Positions 28,442-38,453 of a DNA stretch of 64,000 bases are shown piece after piece. This DNA comes from Sphingobacterium sp. SGG-5. GTDB lineage: Bacteria; Bacteroidota; Bacteroidia; Sphingobacteriales; Sphingobacteriaceae. The DNA lies in assembly GCF_011043525.1 (NCBI RefSeq), contig NZ_JAAKGO010000003.1:372001-436000 (forward strand). The letters are read 5' to 3'. A program made the position numbers and the translations under genes. The stretch's first letter is position 1; the number at the start of each line of letters is the position of its first letter. Below the pieces are notes generated by a model that made no database searches, was not told where the DNA came from, and saw only the letters and a program-made list of their open reading frames with translations.

Positions 28442-29395
28442 TTATTCGTTTACGACACCCATTTTGCTGAACTTTTCGATGCGCTCACTGACTAAAGTGT
28501 TGACATCTTTGGCTCTTAGATAGGTTAGATCTTGTAAGATCTGACTTTTTACATTTTGCCCGGCGATGGCCGGATTTTGATGTGCACCACCCAATGGCTC
28601 AGGAATAATTCCGTCAATAAGACCATTGGAAAGCATATCATTGGCTGTAAGCTTGAGTGCTTCGGCAGCACGCTCTTTATGATCCCAGCTTCGCCATAGA
28701 ATTGATGAACACGATTCTGGCGAAATGACGGAATACCAGGTATTCTCCATCATATACACCCGGTCACCGACACCTATTCCTAACGCACCACCTGAAGCAC
28801 CTTCTCCGATAACGATACAGATGATCGGAACTTGGAGTACGGACATTTCCAGAAGATTACGGGCGATGGCTTCGCCCTGGCCTCTTTCTTCTGCTTCAAG
28901 CCCGGGGTATGCACCCATCGTATCGATTAACGTGACGACTGGTTTATTGAATTTTTCGGCCATTTTCATCAGGCGGAGTGCCTTGCGGTAGCCTTCTGGA
29001 TTGGCCATTCCGAAATTCCGAAATTGGCGCTCTTTGGTATTTTTACCCTTTTGATGGCCGATGACCATGACCGATTGTCCACCAATCGATGCAAATCCAC
29101 CCACAATAGCTTTATCGTCACGAACCGTACGGTCGCCGTGCAGCTCTACAAATTCATCACAGATCATCTCGATATAATCAAATGTCTGTGGTCTGTCCGG
29201 GTGTCGGGACATTTGTACTTTTTGCCAACCTGTGAGGTTCTGATACACCTCTACCTTCGTTTGCTCCAATTTCTTTTCCAGCTCGCGCAAAGTTGCACCC
29301 ATATCCACCTTGGTTTTCTCAGCAACCTGATTGACCTTCTCTATCTGTGTTTGCAAATCTGCAATGGGTTTTTCAAAATCAAATGTTGTTTCCAT
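28442..29395 (-). CDS. accA: Acetyl-CoA carboxylase carboxyltransferase subunit alpha
   Basis: The ATG at 29393-29395 gives a 317-residue protein, the normal AccA length, and the family's start [11 protein letters not shown]. An in-frame 38-residue upstream extension has no match to the family. Motifs include HRPERPQT-like [26 protein letters not shown] and [16 protein letters not shown]. It transfers the carboxyl group from biotin to acetyl-CoA in fatty-acid synthesis, as a complex with AccD. The leader contains a small hairpin, GGCTCA/TGAGCC, at 29403-29418. It is a housekeeping gene lying inside the glycan locus. Confidence 0.95.
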
Positions 29396-29532
29396 ATAAA
29401 CAGGGCTCACTTTTGAGCCAGCTAAGTTAACGTATTTTTGGTGGAAAATATAACGACGTGTAATATTTTCTTTGCAAGAAGCCTGTTCTGATGAATGTTT
29501 AATATGCATTTGTTATCTTCATAATCTCGAAT

Positions 29533-31746
29533 ATGACGTGTTCCTTTATAACATATTTTATGAAATTTACGCTAACCCTTATTGTCCTCTTTGGGATGAT
29601 TTCCGTGCCTTCTTACAGTTATAGCTTATCTCCTGAAATTTTTGATACGATATTGCGGCGGATACATCTGGAACAATTAGATCAAGTGACAGATGTGGCA
29701 GCACTGGATAAGGCGGTCAGCCAAAACTTGTCCGAGCTGGATACAGAAAATGGGCGATGGAAAGGGGTTGACTATTTCGATCATAAGCGTATTAATCCCA
29801 GTTGGCAACCGATACTTGAAAAAATGCGAAAGCTGACGGTGGCGTACTCGCATCCGCAGAGTCGGTATTATGGTGACCCCACGCTGTGGAAAGCCATCAA
29901 CCAAAGTCTGTCCTATTTTTCGAATCACGATCCTATTCCTTATTGTGACAACTGGTTTCAACAAGGGATTACAAGACCCCAGAAACTGGCACTCAGTATG
30001 ATTAATATGGAATTTGGACATCATCCCTTAGACGAGACCGTTCGAAAAAGTACCTTGGATGTTATTTGTAGGGACACTGCGGTAACCAGTAACGGGCGGA
30101 ACAACCCGATGCACAAATATAATTTTGGTGCGAATAAAGCCGAGATTGCTATGGGATGGATTTATATAGGTGCGTTGACAAAAAATCGCACCATGCTTGA
30201 AATAGGTGTCCGTGAAGTGTTTGCACCGATTTCTTATACAACAGGTGAAGGTATACAGCATGACCTGTCCTACGACATGCACTACGGTTATTTGTATAAT
30301 GGCGCATACGGTATTGTTTTTGTCAATAGTGTCGTCAAATCGGCCAATTACCTTTATGAGACACCTTATGCACTTCACGGGGCGCAGCTTGATTTATTTC
30401 GAAAGTTTGTTCTTGAATCTATATTCGGGGTTATGCGAGGCCCCTGGATGGATTGGAATGTGCTGGGTAGAGGCATATCCCGCACGAATGCCACACGAAT
30501 GAACCTCAATAAACTCCTTCGTGCGTTACAACGTATTGATCCCAAAGCAGCGGGTTCGTATGAAATTATACGTCAACGTATGACCGGTGAGGTGCAGTTG
30601 TCGCATGCGGTACAACCTTTACATCGTGTCTATTGGAGTACCGATTTTACGGTTCATCGCCGACCGTCGTATTATTTGTCCATCCATGCCGTCTCCAGCA
30701 GAAACCATGCGCAGGAAATCGGAAATATGGAGAACCTACGCGGTTATTGGGGTGCGCAGGGAACGGTCAATCTGCTGTTAAAGGGTGATGAATATGATAA
30801 TATCTTTCCGGTATGGGACTGGGCAAAGCTCCCCGGGAGTACGCTGCCTGACACGGTTCCTATGCTGGAGAATAAAGCGCCGGGCGAAGGGGACAGGTGG
30901 GGTACAGATGCTTTTTCCGGCGGCGTTTCGGATTCCTTGTATGGGGTGTCGGCGTATGTTGTCCATGAGGATTTAAATACCTCTTCGAAAAAATCGTGGT
31001 TTATGTTTGATGAGGAGACCGTCTGCCTCGGTGCAGGTATCCGCTCGACACTACCCTACAGGGTCAGTACGACGGTGAATCAGTGTATCTATGACGACGA
31101 GGGTATATTTATCGGAGGGTCAAAAAAACAGATGCATGTCCACAAAAATATGCACAAGGTTTATGACAACGATTTAAACTGGCTAATCCATGGGGGTGTA
31201 GCTTATCTGTTTCCGCATCAAGGTGTCGCCGAATTAAAAGTCGACGAGAGGAAAAGTGATTGGTCGACGATAAGGGGCGGAGATAAGTCTTACAAGAGGG
31301 TTGAAAATAAATCGGTCTTCCAATTAACGCTGGAGCACGGCGAGAAGCCGTTTGATGCATCCTATGCTTATATTATAGTGCCTGACATACATACAGCAGA
31401 GGCGTTGCAAAAATATCGTATTAAAAACAATATCTCGATTAGGATGAACACGGACAAGCTCCAGGCCGTCTTTCATCGTAACCTGAAGATATGGCAGATG
31501 GTGTTTTATGAAAAAGATATTCCTTATATCGACAAACAGTTGCACGTATCGACCGATATTCCTGCAATCGTCATGATTAAGAAATTATCCAAAGATAACT
31601 ACCAACTGCACGTAGCCGATCCGACGCAGCAATACAACCGTATTCATATTACGGTAAGCATAGACAGAGGTCTATCCCAAGTATATGCGGTAGACCTTCC
31701 GGCAAAACCCTATGCTGGTCAAACTGTGGCTATCGATCTTAAATAG
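29533..31746 (+). CDS. Polysaccharide lyase family 8 (chondroitin/hyaluronate/xanthan lyase type)
   Basis: The protein has 737 residues, the usual PL8 length, with a signal peptide best read from M10 (29560). An alpha/alpha-toroid N-terminal domain carries the catalytic set: FGANKAE (Asn), DLSYDMHYGYLYNGAYG (His and Tyr), LGRGISR (Arg) and GNMENLRGYWGAQG (Glu). Beta-sandwich domains follow. PL8 enzymes cleave uronic-acid-containing chains by beta-elimination; the exact substrate cannot be read here. It is next to the glycan locus but transcribed after a divergent accA. The 3' end has a second, degraded copy at about 35462. Confidence 0.9.
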   Translation: MTCSFITYFMKFTLTLIVLFGMISVPSYSYSLSPEIFDTILRRIHLEQLDQVTDVAALDKAVSQNLSELDTENGRWKGVDYFDHKRINPSWQPILEKMRKLTVAYSHPQSRYYGDPTLWKAINQSLSYFSNHDPIPYCDNWFQQGITRPQKLALSMINMEFGHHPLDETVRKSTLDVICRDTAVTSNGRNNPMHKYNFGANKAEIAMGWIYIGALTKNRTMLEIGVREVFAPISYTTGEGIQHDLSYDMHYGYLYNGAYGIVFVNSVVKSANYLYETPYALHGAQLDLFRKFVLESIFGVMRGPWMDWNVLGRGISRTNATRMNLNKLLRALQRIDPKAAGSYEIIRQRMTGEVQLSHAVQPLHRVYWSTDFTVHRRPSYYLSIHAVSSRNHAQEIGNMENLRGYWGAQGTVNLLLKGDEYDNIFPVWDWAKLPGSTLPDTVPMLENKAPGEGDRWGTDAFSGGVSDSLYGVSAYVVHEDLNTSSKKSWFMFDEETVCLGAGIRSTLPYRVSTTVNQCIYDDEGIFIGGSKKQMHVHKNMHKVYDNDLNWLIHGGVAYLFPHQGVAELKVDERKSDWSTIRGGDKSYKRVENKSVFQLTLEHGEKPFDASYAYIIVPDIHTAEALQKYRIKNNISIRMNTDKLQAVFHRNLKIWQMVFYEKDIPYIDKQLHVSTDIPAIVMIKKLSKDNYQLHVADPTQQYNRIHITVSIDRGLSQVYAVDLPAKPYAGQTVAIDLK

Positions 31747-31753
31747 CTTGTTT

Positions 31754-33031
31754 TCAAGCGATAATTTGAAAATATGGATTCATCTTATCGGTTTTCCAAT
31801 ACAGATTCCCTTTATGAGCTAAAGCGATAGTTTGAGCCATTCGGGCTACTGCTTCCGCAGAACAATTTGCATTTACCAATATAATATCAGCCTCATCGCC
31901 TGCTTTAGGCCATTGCTGAACGCCCGTATCATCTAAAGGAACAAGGTTTTTTGTTGCAAACTTCAGTGTTCTTGACAACTCGAATTCGGTTTCCCAACCG
32001 TACAATTCGGCAATCAGGTTGGCTTTTTGAAGCATATTTCCCGTCCCGAAAGTACTCCAGTAATCCTGTATATTGTCATTTCCAATCAATACTTCAACAC
32101 CGTGTTTTACCAGTGTAGGAATCGGCATGGCCATTTTATTTCTGAAAGGAATAGAGGATACGATTCCCACTTTGGCTTCGGCTAATTTCTCTGCAATTTC
32201 CTGTTCTTCTTTCGTTGAAAGCTGTGCCAATGCAAAAGCATGACTTACATAAGTTTTGCCTTGCAGTTGTGGGTTTTTTAAAGTTTGCCCGATTAAATAT
32301 TCGATGGTGCGTATACCTTCTTTTCCACCATCATGCAGATGGATATCAATTCCTTTTTGGTTATCTATTGCCAGCTGAACCGTAAAATCAATGGTTTTTT
32401 CAATGTTTTTATCAATGCTGTAAGGATCCAATCCCCCCACAAAGGCTACACAGTCCAATTGAGCAGCATCTTTCATCAGGGGGGGCGAATCGGTATAATA
32501 TAAGCCGTGTTGCGGGAATGCAACCAATTCTGCGCGGAACGTTTCCTTTTTGTTTTCCAATGCTTTTTCCAGGTTTTCTAGCGAGCGAAGTCCAGAAGTC
32601 GTATCGACATTAAAATGTGTTCGCGCAAAAGTCGTCCCATAATTTAACAATAGGTCAATCAATTGCTCTGCACGCTCTACCGAAGTTTTTAATAACTCAG
32701 GAATGATTTCTTGTTCATAGGCAATCATATCCTCCACAGTTCTGCGTTTTGGTGAAAGCGCCTGCCAAGGTAGGCCATACAAGGTTTTATCCAGATGCAC
32801 ATGCATATCCCTGAAAGCAGGTAACATCAACAAGCCTTTTGCGTCGATAGCATCGGCTGATTGCGGATTATTTGCACTTACCTTTGCGATTTTTCCGTCT
32901 TTGATTTCAACGCAAAACAAATCGGCTTTCGTTCCTGTAACTCCGGTTTCATCTTCGATAAAGCCTGTTTCCAGTCGCACGTTTTTTAAGGTGTAATGAC
33001 CTTTTACAGGTGCTGAATAATTATTTTGCAT
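31754..33031 (-). CDS. Amidohydrolase family protein (cytosine-deaminase-like), cytoplasmic
   Basis: At 425 residues, this metal-dependent hydrolase has MHVHLDKT (His77 and His79), then DIHLHDGG, YVSHAFAL and GNDNIQDYW in the usual order for the cytosine-deaminase branch of amidohydrolases. There is no signal peptide. It is a close paralogue of the next gene upstream (33082-34428). The order araC, paralogue, this gene on the reverse strand suggests an operon. The substrate is unknown: cyclic amides, N-acyl compounds and deaminase substrates are all possible. Its 3' end converges with the PL8 stop, 7 nt away, and a relic of both ends lies at 35462-35577. Confidence 0.8.
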   Translation of the reverse strand: MQNNYSAPVKGHYTLKNVRLETGFIEDETGVTGTKADLFCVEIKDGKIAKVSANNPQSADAIDAKGLLMLPAFRDMHVHLDKTLYGLPWQALSPKRRTVEDMIAYEQEIIPELLKTSVERAEQLIDLLLNYGTTFARTHFNVDTTSGLRSLENLEKALENKKETFRAELVAFPQHGLYYTDSPPLMKDAAQLDCVAFVGGLDPYSIDKNIEKTIDFTVQLAIDNQKGIDIHLHDGGKEGIRTIEYLIGQTLKNPQLQGKTYVSHAFALAQLSTKEEQEIAEKLAEAKVGIVSSIPFRNKMAMPIPTLVKHGVEVLIGNDNIQDYWSTFGTGNMLQKANLIAELYGWETEFELSRTLKFATKNLVPLDDTGVQQWPKAGDEADIILVNANCSAEAVARMAQTIALAHKGNLYWKTDKMNPYFQIIA

Positions 33032-33081
33032 CGGATTTTATAGTTTAATGATAGCTGCATTTTCTTTATCTATTCGTAACA

Positions 33082-34428
33082 TTAATAAACCACTTTCCCT
33101 TTGTAAATCAACGAACGAACGGGTGACATTCTTGAAACCGCTTCTGCAGAACAACTTGCTTCAACCAATACGAAATTGGCATCGTCACCGTTTTTTGGCC
33201 ATTGCTGAACACCTTTGTCATCCAAAGGAATGGGGCCTGCTGTTGCAAGTTTTAATAGTCTGGATAAGCCAAATTCAGAGGTATGTCCGTATAATTGTGC
33301 TGCCAGATTTGCTTTTTGCAAAACGCTTCCGGTTCCCATTGTACTCCAATAATCTACAATACTGTCATTTCCCGTCATCACATTTACACCATGTTGTAAC
33401 AAAGTTGGAATCGGCATAATTAATCTACCAAACGGTATAGTGGAAACAATGCCGATTTGAGCAGCAGCCAGCCGTTCTGCAAAGGCTTCTTGTTGTGACT
33501 GGCTTAAAGTTGCCAGCGCAAATGAATGACTGACAAATGTTTTACCTTTTAATACAGGATTCTCGTTTACTTTTTTGATTAAATAATCAATGGTATCATG
33601 ACCTGATTTTCCTGATTCATGCAGGTGGATATCGATCCCTTTATCGTGATCCAATGCCAGCTGAACAGTTGTATCCATTGTCCTTTCAATTGAGCCGTCC
33701 ACATTGGTAGGATCCAGGGCACCGATGAAATCAATGTTCATTGTTGCCGCTTCTTTCATGTAGGGAAGCGAATCGGTGTAATATAAGCCATGTTGCGGAA
33801 AGGCAACGAGTTCGGCACCGAAGCTGTCTTTTTTATTGGCTAAAGCAATCTCTAAGTTTTTCAGCGAATCCAATTTAGATGTTGGTTCGATATTAACGTG
33901 GCTTCGAGCGAATCCTGTTCCATAGGATTGTAGCAATTCGATTAGTTTTTCGGCTTTGTACGTTGAGTTTTTCAGCATGTCCGGTAGCGTCCTTTGCTCC
34001 AGTTCAATCATGCCTTTGATTCCGCCCGAGCGACGTACAGCTCGCCACTTATCGGCGTACAAAGTCTTGTCCAAATGGATATGCATATCTCTAAACGATG
34101 GCAGCATCAATAATCCTTTGGCATCAATGGCATCTGATAGCGGTTGATTGGGACGTATCTGTTTGATTTTTCCATCAGCTACCTCAATGGTAAATAGCTC
34201 TGTTTTTGTACCGATAATTTCCTCTCCGTCATATTCAAATCCTGTTTCCAAACGGACATTTTTCAGCGTGTAGGATATGGAACTTTCTATTTTCTTCATT
34301 TCGTTTTCAAGTGCTGGCTTCTGCCTGCTGTCCATGGAAGAGAGCATTCCGGGCGATAGTGAAAATCCGGCTACACCCCATGCAGATTTCTTTAGAAATT
34401 TTTTTCTTGATAGGTGATGATTACTCAT
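33082..34428 (-). CDS. Amidohydrolase family protein with Tat-like signal peptide
   Basis: The 448 residues begin with SRKKFLKKSAWGVAGF, an Arg-Lys variant of the Tat motif (normally Arg-Arg), so export to the periplasm is likely but not certain. The catalytic blocks mirror those of 31754-33031: MHIHLDKT, DIHLHESG, FVSHSFAL and GNDSIVDYW. The C-terminus is shorter and ends at GKVVY. Two paralogues at different cell locations suggest a two-step use of one substrate. It starts 73 nt after araC, which it follows on the same strand. Confidence 0.8.
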   Translation of the reverse strand: MSNHHLSRKKFLKKSAWGVAGFSLSPGMLSSMDSRQKPALENEMKKIESSISYTLKNVRLETGFEYDGEEIIGTKTELFTIEVADGKIKQIRPNQPLSDAIDAKGLLMLPSFRDMHIHLDKTLYADKWRAVRRSGGIKGMIELEQRTLPDMLKNSTYKAEKLIELLQSYGTGFARSHVNIEPTSKLDSLKNLEIALANKKDSFGAELVAFPQHGLYYTDSLPYMKEAATMNIDFIGALDPTNVDGSIERTMDTTVQLALDHDKGIDIHLHESGKSGHDTIDYLIKKVNENPVLKGKTFVSHSFALATLSQSQQEAFAERLAAAQIGIVSTIPFGRLIMPIPTLLQHGVNVMTGNDSIVDYWSTMGTGSVLQKANLAAQLYGHTSEFGLSRLLKLATAGPIPLDDKGVQQWPKNGDDANFVLVEASCSAEAVSRMSPVRSLIYKGKVVY

Positions 34429-34501
34429 ATGCTTTTGTTCTATAAATACTTATAGATACAAAGTACGTGATAAAAAAACGGACATGCTGTTGTAAAAACA
34501 A

Positions 34502-35380
34502 CTAATGCTTGTAAGATTTATCTTTTTTACGAAATTCGGTAGGCGTTATACCAGTCTGTGCTTTAAAAAAGTTGGAAAAATAAGCGTGGTCGGAAAAGCC
34601 CAGCTCATAGGCGGTTTCCTTTATAGTCAGATTACCGCTTTGCAGCAATCTCTTGGCTTCAATAGTTACTCTTTGATGAATAAGTTGATTGGCAGATACT
34701 TTTAGATCTTTTTTACATAATACATTGAGATAATTGGCAGAGATATGTAGTTTTTCCGCATAAAATGAAACCGATTTCTGCTCTTTATAAAATTCATCGA
34801 TCAGCATATTAAACCTTGCCAGTCTTGGGTTAGACTGATATACCTTAAATTCATTGAAAAGATTTGCAGCCTGTTTACTGACTGTAGCAGCAATAACAGC
34901 TGCGCGTGCATGGATTAGATCGATCAGGGAATCAGGTGCTTTCAGTTCTTCCTTAATCGCTGTAAATTCATGTTTGAGCATTGAAAAAGCATGATCTGTC
35001 AGTTTGATGACCGGATTGTTTTGATAATTGGTAAAGGAGAATCGAAAGTATGGAGCAAATTGCTCAAAAAAAGTCCGCTCGACCATGAGTTGATAGCCGA
35101 TGGTTCCTGCATGGATATTCCATTTGTGCATTTGTCCCGGAAACAGAACATGTACTTCACGGTCTCTTATGATATAATCTTGCGAATCAATATTATGTGC
35201 GCCCGAAGCCCGGTCAAAGAGAATGATTACAAAAAAATCGTGCTTGTGGGATTCATCGATATGTCTTTCTCCATCCAATTTGTTGAACAAGATTTCTGTA
35301 CGACCTTCCAACTGTCCTTTTCGGAACTCCTGGATACTCATAATGGGGACGGAATCATATGATAGAGGTATCTGCATCAT
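34502..35380 (-). CDS. AraC family transcriptional regulator
   Basis: At 292 residues, it has an N-terminal cupin-like ligand domain (~25-110, with HVLFPGQMHKW) and C-terminal double helix-turn-helix (~195-290). The HTH contains YLNVLCKKDLK and AYELGFSDHAYFSNFFK, the family signature. It lies directly upstream of the two amidohydrolase genes on the same strand and is the likely activator of them. A -7 element, TACATTTG, lies at 35394-35401 on the same strand, 14 nt before the start. Confidence 0.9.
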   Translation of the reverse strand: MMQIPLSYDSVPIMSIQEFRKGQLEGRTEILFNKLDGERHIDESHKHDFFVIILFDRASGAHNIDSQDYIIRDREVHVLFPGQMHKWNIHAGTIGYQLMVERTFFEQFAPYFRFSFTNYQNNPVIKLTDHAFSMLKHEFTAIKEELKAPDSLIDLIHARAAVIAATVSKQAANLFNEFKVYQSNPRLARFNMLIDEFYKEQKSVSFYAEKLHISANYLNVLCKKDLKVSANQLIHQRVTIEAKRLLQSGNLTIKETAYELGFSDHAYFSNFFKAQTGITPTEFRKKDKSYKH

Positions 35381-35393
35381 AATATTTATAATA

Positions 35394-35401
35394 CAAATGT
35401 A
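35394..35401 (-). promoter_or_regulatory. -7 element upstream of araC
   Basis: The reverse strand reads TACATTTG, an exact TAnnTTTG match, just before the araC start. No -33 TTTG was found at 19-21 bp, so the promoter is tentative. Confidence 0.4.
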
Positions 35402-35461
35402 TGGTTTAAACTATTTGTATTATATTTTTTTTAGTTTTTCCCAACTCTTTCGTGCTAATAG

Positions 35462-35577
35462 AAAATACGGTTGGCCAAACGGTAACTATTGATCTTAAAT
35501 AGCTTGTTTTCAGGTTATAACTTGGAAATACGGATTTAAAAGAGTATATTTGGGAATACCCCCTTAAAAGAGCTCCA
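35462..35577. pseudogene. Relic of a PL8-amidohydrolase convergent gene junction
   Basis: The plus strand at 35473-35502 encodes G-Q-T-V-T-I-D-L-K-stop, matching the last residues of the PL8 protein (GQTVAIDLK, 31717-31746). The minus strand at 35513-35539 encodes N-P-Y-F-Q-V-I-T-stop, matching the amidohydrolase end NPYFQIIA. The 64-nt core (35473-35536) matches 31717-31780 with about 12 differences. Weaker similarity with indels continues to about 35577. Both genes are gone except for these ends. Confidence 0.8.
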
Positions 35578-35634
35578 ATTTCTTTACGGAAGTGATATAT
35601 ACGCTTATTTTAAGGCGCGTCTTTTGGATTTATT

Positions 35635-35928
35635 ATGGAAAAATTTGTTATTGTTAATTATCCCGCAAGCCGGGCGACGTCGTTGAAAGTAAATTATAGT
35701 ATTCAGCTTAGTGGAAAACTACAGACGATAGAGTGTCATGTAGATGACAAACAGCCGCTCCCAAAGTGGTTGCAGCTCCACAGGTTTAATTTTGTATCAC
35801 TCAAAAGTCAAAATACGTATAGCCTCTTGTTTGAGGAAAGTAAATACAACAAGAATTTGGATACCCTTTTGTTTATGGACGAGGTCTATGCATCGATTAT
35901 GGAGCAGCGGAATTTTCAGGTTGCTTAA
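35635..35928 (+). CDS. Hypothetical protein, 97 residues
   Basis: I do not recognise this protein. It has no signal peptide or membrane segment and a mixed, soluble-type composition (start MEKFVIVNYPASRATS). It has a canonical ATG and lies 59 nt upstream of the topoisomerase gene on the same strand. The pair may be co-transcribed; no -7 element was found near its start. Confidence 0.5.
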   Translation: MEKFVIVNYPASRATSLKVNYSIQLSGKLQTIECHVDDKQPLPKWLQLHRFNFVSLKSQNTYSLLFEESKYNKNLDTLLFMDEVYASIMEQRNFQVA

Positions 35929-35987
35929 TGCTATGTCGTTGCTCAAACTATTTTATCCGTCCTTTGTTGTTGCCATAAATATAAATT

Positions 35988-37034
35988 ATGGTGAACACGG
36001 CCGAAATTATAGCGGATAGTCATTTAGTCTATGTGAGTCCCGAAAAAGGCGGGATTTATCGGAAGGGTACGCCTGGAAAATTTAATTACGAGGATGACAA
36101 GGGAAATAACATAACCGCTGAATCCGAACTCGAACGTATCCAATCACTTGTATTACCTCCAGCTTGGAAAAATGTGTGGATTTCTCCCAAAAGAAATGGC
36201 TATTTACAGGCTGTCGGAATTGATGCAGCAGGCCGAAAGCAGTACCGTTATCACCCCGATTGGGTAAAACGACGTTCTCAAGAAAAATATTTTAGGTTAC
36301 TGGAGTTTGGCCAAGCATTGCCGAGTGCGCGAAAACAAGTGGAAAAGGATTTGCGGCGAAGAGAACTAGATGAAAGAAAGGTGCTTGCTATCTGTGTCAA
36401 GGTCTTGCAGGAGACATTAATTCGAATTGGAAGTTCAGCTTATGAAAAAATCTACAATAGCTATGGACTCAGCACATTAAAAGACAAACACTTTAAAGAG
36501 AAAGACAAGGCAGCTTACCTATGCTTTGTAGGGAAGAAAGGCGTAAAACAGGAGGTAAAGTTAACCGATAAACGACTAACCAGACTCGTTAAAAAATGCA
36601 AGGATATCCCCGGTCAGGAACTGTTCCAGTTCTATACCGAGGAAAACGAAAGAAGAGCGATAGAATCAGGCATGATTAATCAATACATTCGTGAAATTAC
36701 CAACGATGATTTTACGGCAAAAGACTTTCGGACTTGGGGTGGAACTTTAGAAGCTATGCGGCAATTAGCAATCTGCACGAAAGAAAATCCGGAAATGTCG
36801 GCAAAGAAATTGGTTGTTGAGGCCTTAGATTGTGTAGCCGCTAAATTGGGGAACACACGCGCGGTTTGTAAGAGCGCTTATGTATACCCGATTTTACTGG
36901 AAGCTTTTGAGGATGGCAATTTACAGCGTTATTTAAAGCGGATTGCGATTACAGAGAAAGATGAAAAGAAAGCGCTGAGAAATGATGAGGCGGTATTAAT
37001 TCAATTCTTAAAGGCGGTGAAAAGAAAAAAGTAA
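35988..37034 (+). CDS. DNA topoisomerase IB (poxvirus-type)
   Basis: At 348 residues, this is a small type IB enzyme. The N-terminal domain contains PPAWKNVWISP and HPDWVKRR. The catalytic domain has ITNDDFTAKDFRTWGGT and, near the end, GNTRAVCKSAYVYP with the active-site Tyr298. Type IB enzymes relax supercoils of both signs through a 3'-phosphotyrosine link; bacterial versions are accessory and of uncertain role. A hairpin follows directly after the stop. Confidence 0.9.
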   Translation: MVNTAEIIADSHLVYVSPEKGGIYRKGTPGKFNYEDDKGNNITAESELERIQSLVLPPAWKNVWISPKRNGYLQAVGIDAAGRKQYRYHPDWVKRRSQEKYFRLLEFGQALPSARKQVEKDLRRRELDERKVLAICVKVLQETLIRIGSSAYEKIYNSYGLSTLKDKHFKEKDKAAYLCFVGKKGVKQEVKLTDKRLTRLVKKCKDIPGQELFQFYTEENERRAIESGMINQYIREITNDDFTAKDFRTWGGTLEAMRQLAICTKENPEMSAKKLVVEALDCVAAKLGNTRAVCKSAYVYPILLEAFEDGNLQRYLKRIAITEKDEKKALRNDEAVLIQFLKAVKRKK

Positions 37035-37064
37035 AGCCCAATCTTCCGATTGAGCTTTTGTTTT
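37034..37064 (+). terminator. Rho-independent terminator after topoisomerase gene
   Basis: AAGCCCAATC (37034-37043) pairs with GATTGAGCTT (37048-37057) around TTCC with one C-A mismatch, followed by TTGTTTTG. It immediately follows the stop codon. Confidence 0.75.
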
Positions 37065-37153
37065 GTGATCCCGCTGGGATTGGTTCAGCCCCGCAGTCCC
37101 GCATTCAACCTTAAACCTTCTTCGATTCGAACCCTTGGGTTCTCATCCCAGCC
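37064..37153 (-). pseudogene. Fragmented tRNA 3'-half relic next to tRNA-Lys
   Basis: The 18-base sequence TGTGATCCCGCTGGGATT at 37064-37081 is identical to the 3' end of the tRNA-Lys at 37191-37208. The T-loop sequence GATTCGAACCC reappears at 37124-37134, about 42 bp later, as if a tRNA 3' half had been interrupted at GATT. The surrounding bases do not form a full tRNA. It is probably a degraded tRNA copy or an old integration scar. Confidence 0.5.
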
Positions 37154-37155
37154 AA

Positions 37156-37187
37156 CAAAAAAAGCAACCCTTTTGGAAGTTGCTTTT
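37156..37187 (-). terminator. Terminator of the tRNA-Lys transcript
   Basis: On the reverse strand AAGCAAC (37079-type arm at 37085 to 37079 of the window's 371xx block, i.e. 37185-37179) pairs with GTTGCTT (37168-37162) and is followed by seven Ts. It lies just beyond the 3' end of the tRNA. Confidence 0.8.
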
Positions 37188-37192
37188 ATTTG

Positions 37193-37265
37193 TGATCCCG
37201 CTGGGATTCGAACCCAGGACCCATACATTAAAAGTGTATTGCTCTACCAGCTGAGCTACGGAATC
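37193..37265 (-). tRNA. tRNA-Lys (anticodon TTT)
   Basis: The reverse strand folds as a tRNA of 73 nt. The acceptor stem GATTCCG pairs with CGGGATC (one T-G pair), with discriminator A and no encoded CCA (the next bases are CA). The D arm AGCTCAGCTGGTAGAGC, the anticodon loop CTTTTAA in a TACA/TGTA stem, and the T arm CTGGGTTCGAATCCCAG are all regular. The anticodon TTT reads Lys. A promoter (37306-37337) and terminator (37156-37187) are visible. Confidence 0.95.
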
Positions 37266-37305
37266 TTAATTCTTAAACGAATTACCTTCGTCGTTTGAAG
37301 TGCTG

Positions 37306-37337
37306 CAAAGGTAGAAAAAACAGGCATTCATGCCAAA
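37306..37337 (-). promoter_or_regulatory. Promoter of tRNA-Lys
   Basis: On the reverse strand, TTTG (37334-37337) and TACCTTTG (37306-37313) are separated by 20 bp, an excellent fit to the Bacteroidota consensus. Transcription would start about 35 nt before the tRNA. Confidence 0.75.
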
Positions 37338-37395
37338 TCTTTCTACATATATTTTTATCCCTTGGCAATAACTCTTTGTCTTTCAGTTTAGAAAA

Positions 37396-38259
37396 CTAAT
37401 AATTTTGTTTGGCCGCTATCATACGATCCGCACCGGAGATATCTTTGAATAAAGTAACTTGATGAAATCCTTTCTTTTTCAACAGCTCTACCGTCTCCCG
37501 ACCGAGATATTGGTTGATCTCAAAATATAGGCATCCATCCGGTTTGAGATGAGTTAATGCGAAATCGGCAATATAATCGTAGAAAAGGAGAGGAGCCTCT
37601 TCGGGGACAAATAAAGCCTGTGCCGGTTCAAAATCGAGGACATTCGAATGCATGCCGGACTTTTCTTGGGGGGTGATATAAGGCGGATTACTGACGATGA
37701 TGTCAAACAGTTGGTTCGGATCAAATATTACATCCCACTCCAAGATGTCACCGAGAATGAAGTGAATATGCTGTTGGAATTCTTTTGCATTGATTTTGGC
37801 GACGGCTAACGCTTCGGGTGAAACATCCATCGCCCAAACATGTGCCTGGTGCATTTTTTTAGCAAGCGTCAATGCGATACATCCACTACCCGTACCGATG
37901 TCTATCACATGCATGTCGCTTCTCCCTTGATGGTTTTCCAAAATAAGGTGCACCAGCTCTTCTGTTTCAGATCGCGGAATTAAAGTGTATTCAGAGACGC
38001 GAAAGGTCAAGCCATAAAAATGAGCTTCTCCCAAAATCTGCTGAATAGGCTGGCCGGTCGTCAGTTTTTCCAAAATATGGAGCATTCTCGTAGCAATAGC
38101 GTCGTCGGCCGCTTCATTTTTGAAAAGACTGTAGTTCGTAAAAGACAGCGCCGCAATTTTTTCTAAGGCGATATGAAATAATGCTTTTGCTTCTTCCGCC
38201 GGATACAAATTCGCAAGCCCTTTTTGATAATGTTCTGCGATATCAGCAAATGTCATCAT
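37396..38259 (-). CDS. prmC: Peptide chain release factor N(5)-glutamine methyltransferase
   Basis: The SAM-binding motif VIDIGTGSGCIAL and the catalytic NPPYI (in IIVSNPPYITP) identify PrmC, which methylates the GGQ glutamine of release factors. The N-terminal helical domain (1-75) is present. The ATG at 38259 is chosen: an upstream GTG (38265) overlaps a TAAGTTTG -7 element on this strand, leaving 5 nt to the ATG. It is divergent from ribD. Confidence 0.9.
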   Translation of the reverse strand: MMTFADIAEHYQKGLANLYPAEEAKALFHIALEKIAALSFTNYSLFKNEAADDAIATRMLHILEKLTTGQPIQQILGEAHFYGLTFRVSEYTLIPRSETEELVHLILENHQGRSDMHVIDIGTGSGCIALTLAKKMHQAHVWAMDVSPEALAVAKINAKEFQQHIHFILGDILEWDVIFDPNQLFDIIVSNPPYITPQEKSGMHSNVLDFEPAQALFVPEEAPLLFYDYIADFALTHLKPDGCLYFEINQYLGRETVELLKKKGFHQVTLFKDISGADRMIAAKQNY

Positions 38260-38453
38260 GTCCACAAACTTACAATATTCTCGCGGCTGTTTAACTATTT
38301 ATTTCTTAAGTTTTCCTCTACAAATTAAGCTTTCAAAGGTAGAGGAGAGAACGATCAATTCTTTTTATATGAATTGAACCACATTGCATATAAAAATAAT
38401 TACTCATAGACTGTTTATGCTAAAAGGCATTCGTGAATGCAAAGCATTTTCTC

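Follow-up and report, generated by a model that had tools for sequence, protein, structure and literature searches.

A 65-base stretch beside an araC gene most likely marks the site at which an amidohydrolase operon of three genes was inserted. The window analysed here is a stretch of 64,000 nucleotides from a Sphingobacterium genome of 4.11 Mb in 53 contigs. In it, a complete araC-amhB-amhA operon lies exactly between two copies of the 3' end of a polysaccharide lyase family 8 (PL8) gene, so that the cargo is bounded by direct repeats. One copy, M1 (31716-31780, + strand), is in place at the end of the intact lyase gene, and the other, M2 (35472-35536, + strand), is an orphan upstream of araC. 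We consider it about two-thirds probable that this arrangement, a 3.7-kb operon between two diverged PL8 3' ends, was left by insertion or replacement at the PL8 gene end.

A direct repeat of the PL8 gene end

The intact PL8 gene (29533-31746, + strand) is chondroitinase-AC-like. It has the Pfam domains Lyase_8, Lyase_8_N and Lyase_8_C, and it scores 501 bits against the NCBIfam model chondaseAC, below the cut-off of 1000. The operon follows on the - strand, with amhA at 31754-33031, the second amidohydrolase amhB at 33082-34428, and araC, the AraC-family regulator that heads it (HTH_18), at 34502-35380. Both amhA and amhB match Amidohydro_3, and both score above the cut-off of the NCBIfam amidohydrolase model PRK06846.1. 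M1 comprises the end of the PL8 gene, with its stop codon at 31744-31746, and the next 34 bp, which on the opposite strand serve as codons for the last 8 residues of amhA. M2 comprises the final 10 codons of a PL8 gene (GQTVTIDLK*) and 34 bp of 3' flank.

M1 and M2 form an ungapped direct repeat of 65 bp in which 54/65 positions are identical (11 mismatches, 83%; no indels). A search against the whole genome gives the match an E-value of 4.5e-12 and finds no third copy; having only these two copies in the genome rules out a dispersed repeat. The local alignment score is 75, while 200 comparisons with Markov-shuffled sequence reach a maximum of 45, with a mean of 30. The longest identical run is 22 bp, and a run of that length has a probability of 0.08 by chance. 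The sequence-only reading had matched a relic of about 115 bp to the junction at 31717-31810, with weaker similarity continuing past the core. The repeat itself is real, and its extent is corrected to 35472-35536. Anchored extension scores 0 beyond either edge, which rules out homology reaching ~115 bp, and in the 90-bp flanks the best local match is no better than that between random pairs of segments from the window (P = 0.89 on the right, 0.36 on the left). The edges are sharp on both sides, with no gradual decay into pseudogene remains. In a genus-wide DNA search, the relic region finds only short matches outside its own genome, of 42 bits or less, and the other loci examined hold no convincing match to the repeat.

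The repeat might be a functional element kept at two places, for example a terminator, instead of a relic. A hairpin in M1 directly past the PL8 stop (GCTTG-TTTT-CAAGC) speaks for such an element; against it, neither copy is called as a terminator-like site, M2 has a different fold without significance (z -1.4), only two copies occur in the genome, and M2 stands upstream of the genes on either side, a position that suggests no obvious terminator role. We hardly credit this explanation.

The left half of the repeat carries a lyase C-terminus. In the + frame both copies finish GQTV[A/T]IDLK*, and a related C-terminal motif, DLPxKxYAGQTV, ends nine PL8 orthologues of 51-58% identity in Sphingobacterium and Pedobacter, with GQTV in five, GKTV in one and GQSK in three. 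Because this motif is common to PL8 orthologues, we read M2 as a true PL8 C-terminus cut in mid-motif, and it is supported that another PL8 3' end, a diverged one, lies upstream of araC. In the PL8 frame the copies differ at five positions, of which four are third positions and silent; there is one amino-acid change where 3.5 are expected (P 0.01-0.03). It thus seems that the two ends were coding while they diverged and that M2 became an orphan afterwards. Their divergence of 17% is somewhat below that of accA from the nearest sampled species (21%).

These differences bear on two simpler origins of M2. The first is local copying of the 65 bp, for instance in a rearrangement that brought the operon, after which M2 would have drifted neutrally, as non-coding DNA, to 17%. 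Such copying takes the fewest steps, and M2 has no visible function. Neutral drift, however, predicts neither the absence of indels nor the distribution of changes over codon positions, with 8/11 at third positions and none at second positions (P 0.009 and 0.012), and we find local copying very improbable. The second is a simple recent form of the tandem duplication that had been proposed for this locus, which does not fit copies that are 17% apart and whose PL8-frame changes are mostly silent, as in sequences that diverged while coding. M2 resembles the remnant of a tandem gene-block duplication in being a second gene-end copy, in the same orientation, beside the parent locus. It differs from such a remnant in covering only 65 bp, in its 17% coding-type divergence, in having no amidohydrolase body, and in that no second PL8 gene stands there in relatives. 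A lost second PL8 gene in tandem is one possible route to M2, not a needed one.

No close relative of the lyase, and none above 59% identity, appears among 94 genomes of the genus, 401 genomes of the family and a scan of GTDB r220, and we find no donor whose PL8 end is close. The only other PL8 relative in the genome (G000:C50:277724-279787, locus L002) is 32% identical and belongs to an open frame 1651 codons long, which may encode a multidomain enzyme.

The amidohydrolase end of the repeat

On the - strand, M1 encodes the last 8 residues of amhA, NPYFQIIA*, and the counterpart in M2 reads NPYFQVIT*. The opposite-strand gene ends described earlier, the PL8 tail and this frame, are both readable. 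The closer amhA orthologues stop 2 to 13 residues past a conserved tryptophan, with tails that are mutually unrelated and none of which resembles NPYFQIIA. The amhA orthologue of another Sphingobacterium genome, G020 (locus L096, 8116-9432), reads through into an unrelated tail of ~25 residues at the point where WKK ends the protein in sister genomes, which indicates that the 3' end of amhA changes freely. We had considered the uniqueness of the amhA tail as an argument for a joint; it is weakened by the unrelated tails of up to 13 residues in orthologues, and the case therefore rests on where homology ends, not on the length of the tail. The closest amh operon is that of a Pedobacter genome, G315, whose amhA is 76% identical. 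DNA homology to it starts at window position 31784, 3 bp past the end of M1 at 31780. As M1 ends 3 bp before this conserved sequence begins, and as the 8-codon end is a hypervariable tail, the relic contains no recognisable amidohydrolase sequence. The earlier proposal of a second PL8-amidohydrolase-araC block is not supported, the relic stopping 3 bp short of the homology to the Pedobacter orthologue.

In an amended version of that proposal, a diverged second PL8-amhA junction once stood on the right side of araC. It would stem from a tandem duplication of old date or from a xenologous cluster of the same kind, and two deletions would have spared only the convergent gene ends. The main evidence left for it is the conservation of the amhA frame, in which M1 and M2 differ by 2 amino-acid changes, compared with an expectation of 4.2 (P 0.03 if transition bias is absent, 0.09 if it is strong). 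Together with the PL8 frame this gives two conservatively changed frames, each the best kept of the six in its half of the repeat, PL8 on the left and amhA on the right. By these comparisons the conservative change of both frames is weakly significant. The amended version needs two independent deletions, each ending ~30 bp from the stop codons, and one of them would have to stop within 4 bp of the point where conserved amhA sequence begins. In addition, PL8-amh adjacency occurs in no other genome examined and the nearest relatives have neither gene. We judge a lost second junction to be unlikely.

The operon at other loci

The araC-amhB-amhA operon is found, compact, in four other Sphingobacterium genomes (G020 among them) and in four other members of the family, including G315. 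It keeps araC in the same place and amhB beside amhA, and no locus examined has a PL8 gene beside it. Conversely, none of the PL8 orthologues examined has amh genes nearby. The two amidohydrolases share ~60% identity and have separate sets of orthologues, which makes the pair old. The suggestion that a duplication at this locus explains the paired amidohydrolases is also not supported, since the gene order is conserved at PL8-free loci in Sphingobacterium and Pedobacter. PL8, amhA and amhB are all absent from the seven nearest relatives (among them G063 and G001). A search with amhA gives no match on viral contigs, and all of its matches on plasmids are below 60%. The GC3 of the three operon genes is 0.37-0.38, compared with 0.48 for PL8 and 0.434 +/- 0.047 for the other open reading frames of the window; this contrast is suggestive only, the values being within ~1.4 sd of the window genes.

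The surroundings are themselves rearranged. The stretch 28442-38265 is flanked by accA (left) and prmC (right). Of the 11 relatives searched, 10 have these two genes on separate contigs, and in the eleventh, G049, 138 kb lie between them, which makes this a rearranged, accessory stretch on a rearrangement breakpoint. With accA and prmC apart, none of the 11 relatives offers a readable empty site, and no sampled relative has a PL8 gene there. The locus holds no tyrosine recombinase; the genome has three, the nearest ~220 kb away.

Three other features lie in this stretch. Just upstream of araC, at 35387-35424, the genome search returned a self-inverted match, an imperfect palindrome (AATACAAAT...ATTTGTATT) that is possibly a regulator site. 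Between M2 and top1B, a 97-aa open reading frame (35635-35928, + strand) encodes a conserved small protein. Of the 94 genomes of the genus, 23 have a match to it, the window's own genome being one of them and G063 reaching 59%; it has no Pfam match above cut-off and no NCBIfam match. Between top1B and prmC, ~125 bp at 37189-37314 are 94% identical to two places within 20 kb in the relative G001 (locus L090, 896-1020 and 14701-14822), and to judge from these copies the sequence is a dispersed intergenic repeat family.

A proposed joint at the lyase gene end

In our preferred explanation, the lineage would have acquired the operon, which became joined to the PL8 gene end by recombination with a second, diverged PL8 3' end, and the interval 31781-35471, holding the complete operon (- strand) and the region upstream of araC, would be the inserted unit. 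Leftward, similarity would stop at 35472 because M2 was cut there and the operon's far end joined to it; rightward, it would stop at 31780 because the operon, with amhA at its edge, cut M1. In reading through the joint into the PL8 flank, amhA would have produced the apparent amidohydrolase codons of the relic. With an operon between two PL8 3' ends, one arrangement accounts for the left and the right edge of the repeat together, and for this reason we prefer it to a duplicated junction. The evidence that favours it comprises the PL8 C-terminus cut within its motif, the sharp edges, the start of homology at 31784 and the hypervariable amhA tails; the completeness of the operon, with the same gene order at PL8-free loci, and nearest relatives without PL8 and amh; and the GC3 contrast and the four silent differences of five in the PL8 frame. 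Against it stand the conservative change in the amhA frame, as expected of a real second amhA end, the lack of an empty site in any relative, of a tyrosine recombinase at the locus and of a close PL8 donor.

Three routes could lead to this joint. In route (a), a circle carrying the operon and a PL8 3' end would integrate at the resident PL8 end, either through RecA or through a site-specific recombinase supplied in trans, and the displaced gene end would be M2. In route (b), a foreign segment with PL8 and the operon would replace the resident PL8 gene, the left joint being homologous and the other illegitimate, 10 codons short of the old gene's end. In route (c), the operon would displace the body of a tandem PL8 paralogue. 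We place route (a) slightly ahead of (b) and (c). A more specific version, in which a compact 3.7-kb catabolic operon without a recombinase of its own inserted site-specifically at the PL8 3' end, bringing its own copy of the gene end and leaving the lyase intact, seems to us distinctly improbable.

Parts of this history have known counterparts. There are genomic islands or cis-mobilizable elements that a repeat of a gene 3' end borders and that have no integration module (PMC3146451). Like the present operon, the ssrA islands of Dehalococcoides described there have cargo between an intact gene 3' end and its direct repeat, and their integration genes can be missing. A cis-mobilizable element need not have a recombinase inside it or nearby. 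The locus differs from these islands in its target, a protein-coding lyase gene, in the small size of the unit, only 3.7 kb, and in the 17% divergence of its repeats despite an identical core of 22 bp; it also shows no tyrosine recombinase and no empty site. Foreign DNA is also known to be joined through homology at just one of its ends (PMC3240628). In this homology-facilitated illegitimate recombination, one homologous and one illegitimate joint would leave a stub of the replaced gene, as M2 could be; it is a process and not a family.

M2 is an ordinary small genome scar and no proof of a whole-block duplication. Its wider importance is small. It offers a caution for the reading of relics, in that coding ends on opposite strands can come from a gene that reads through a recombination joint. 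The history of the locus is corrected: the amidohydrolase pair belongs to an operon that is old and moves as one piece, and its arrival beside the lyase gene is most likely what the scar marks.
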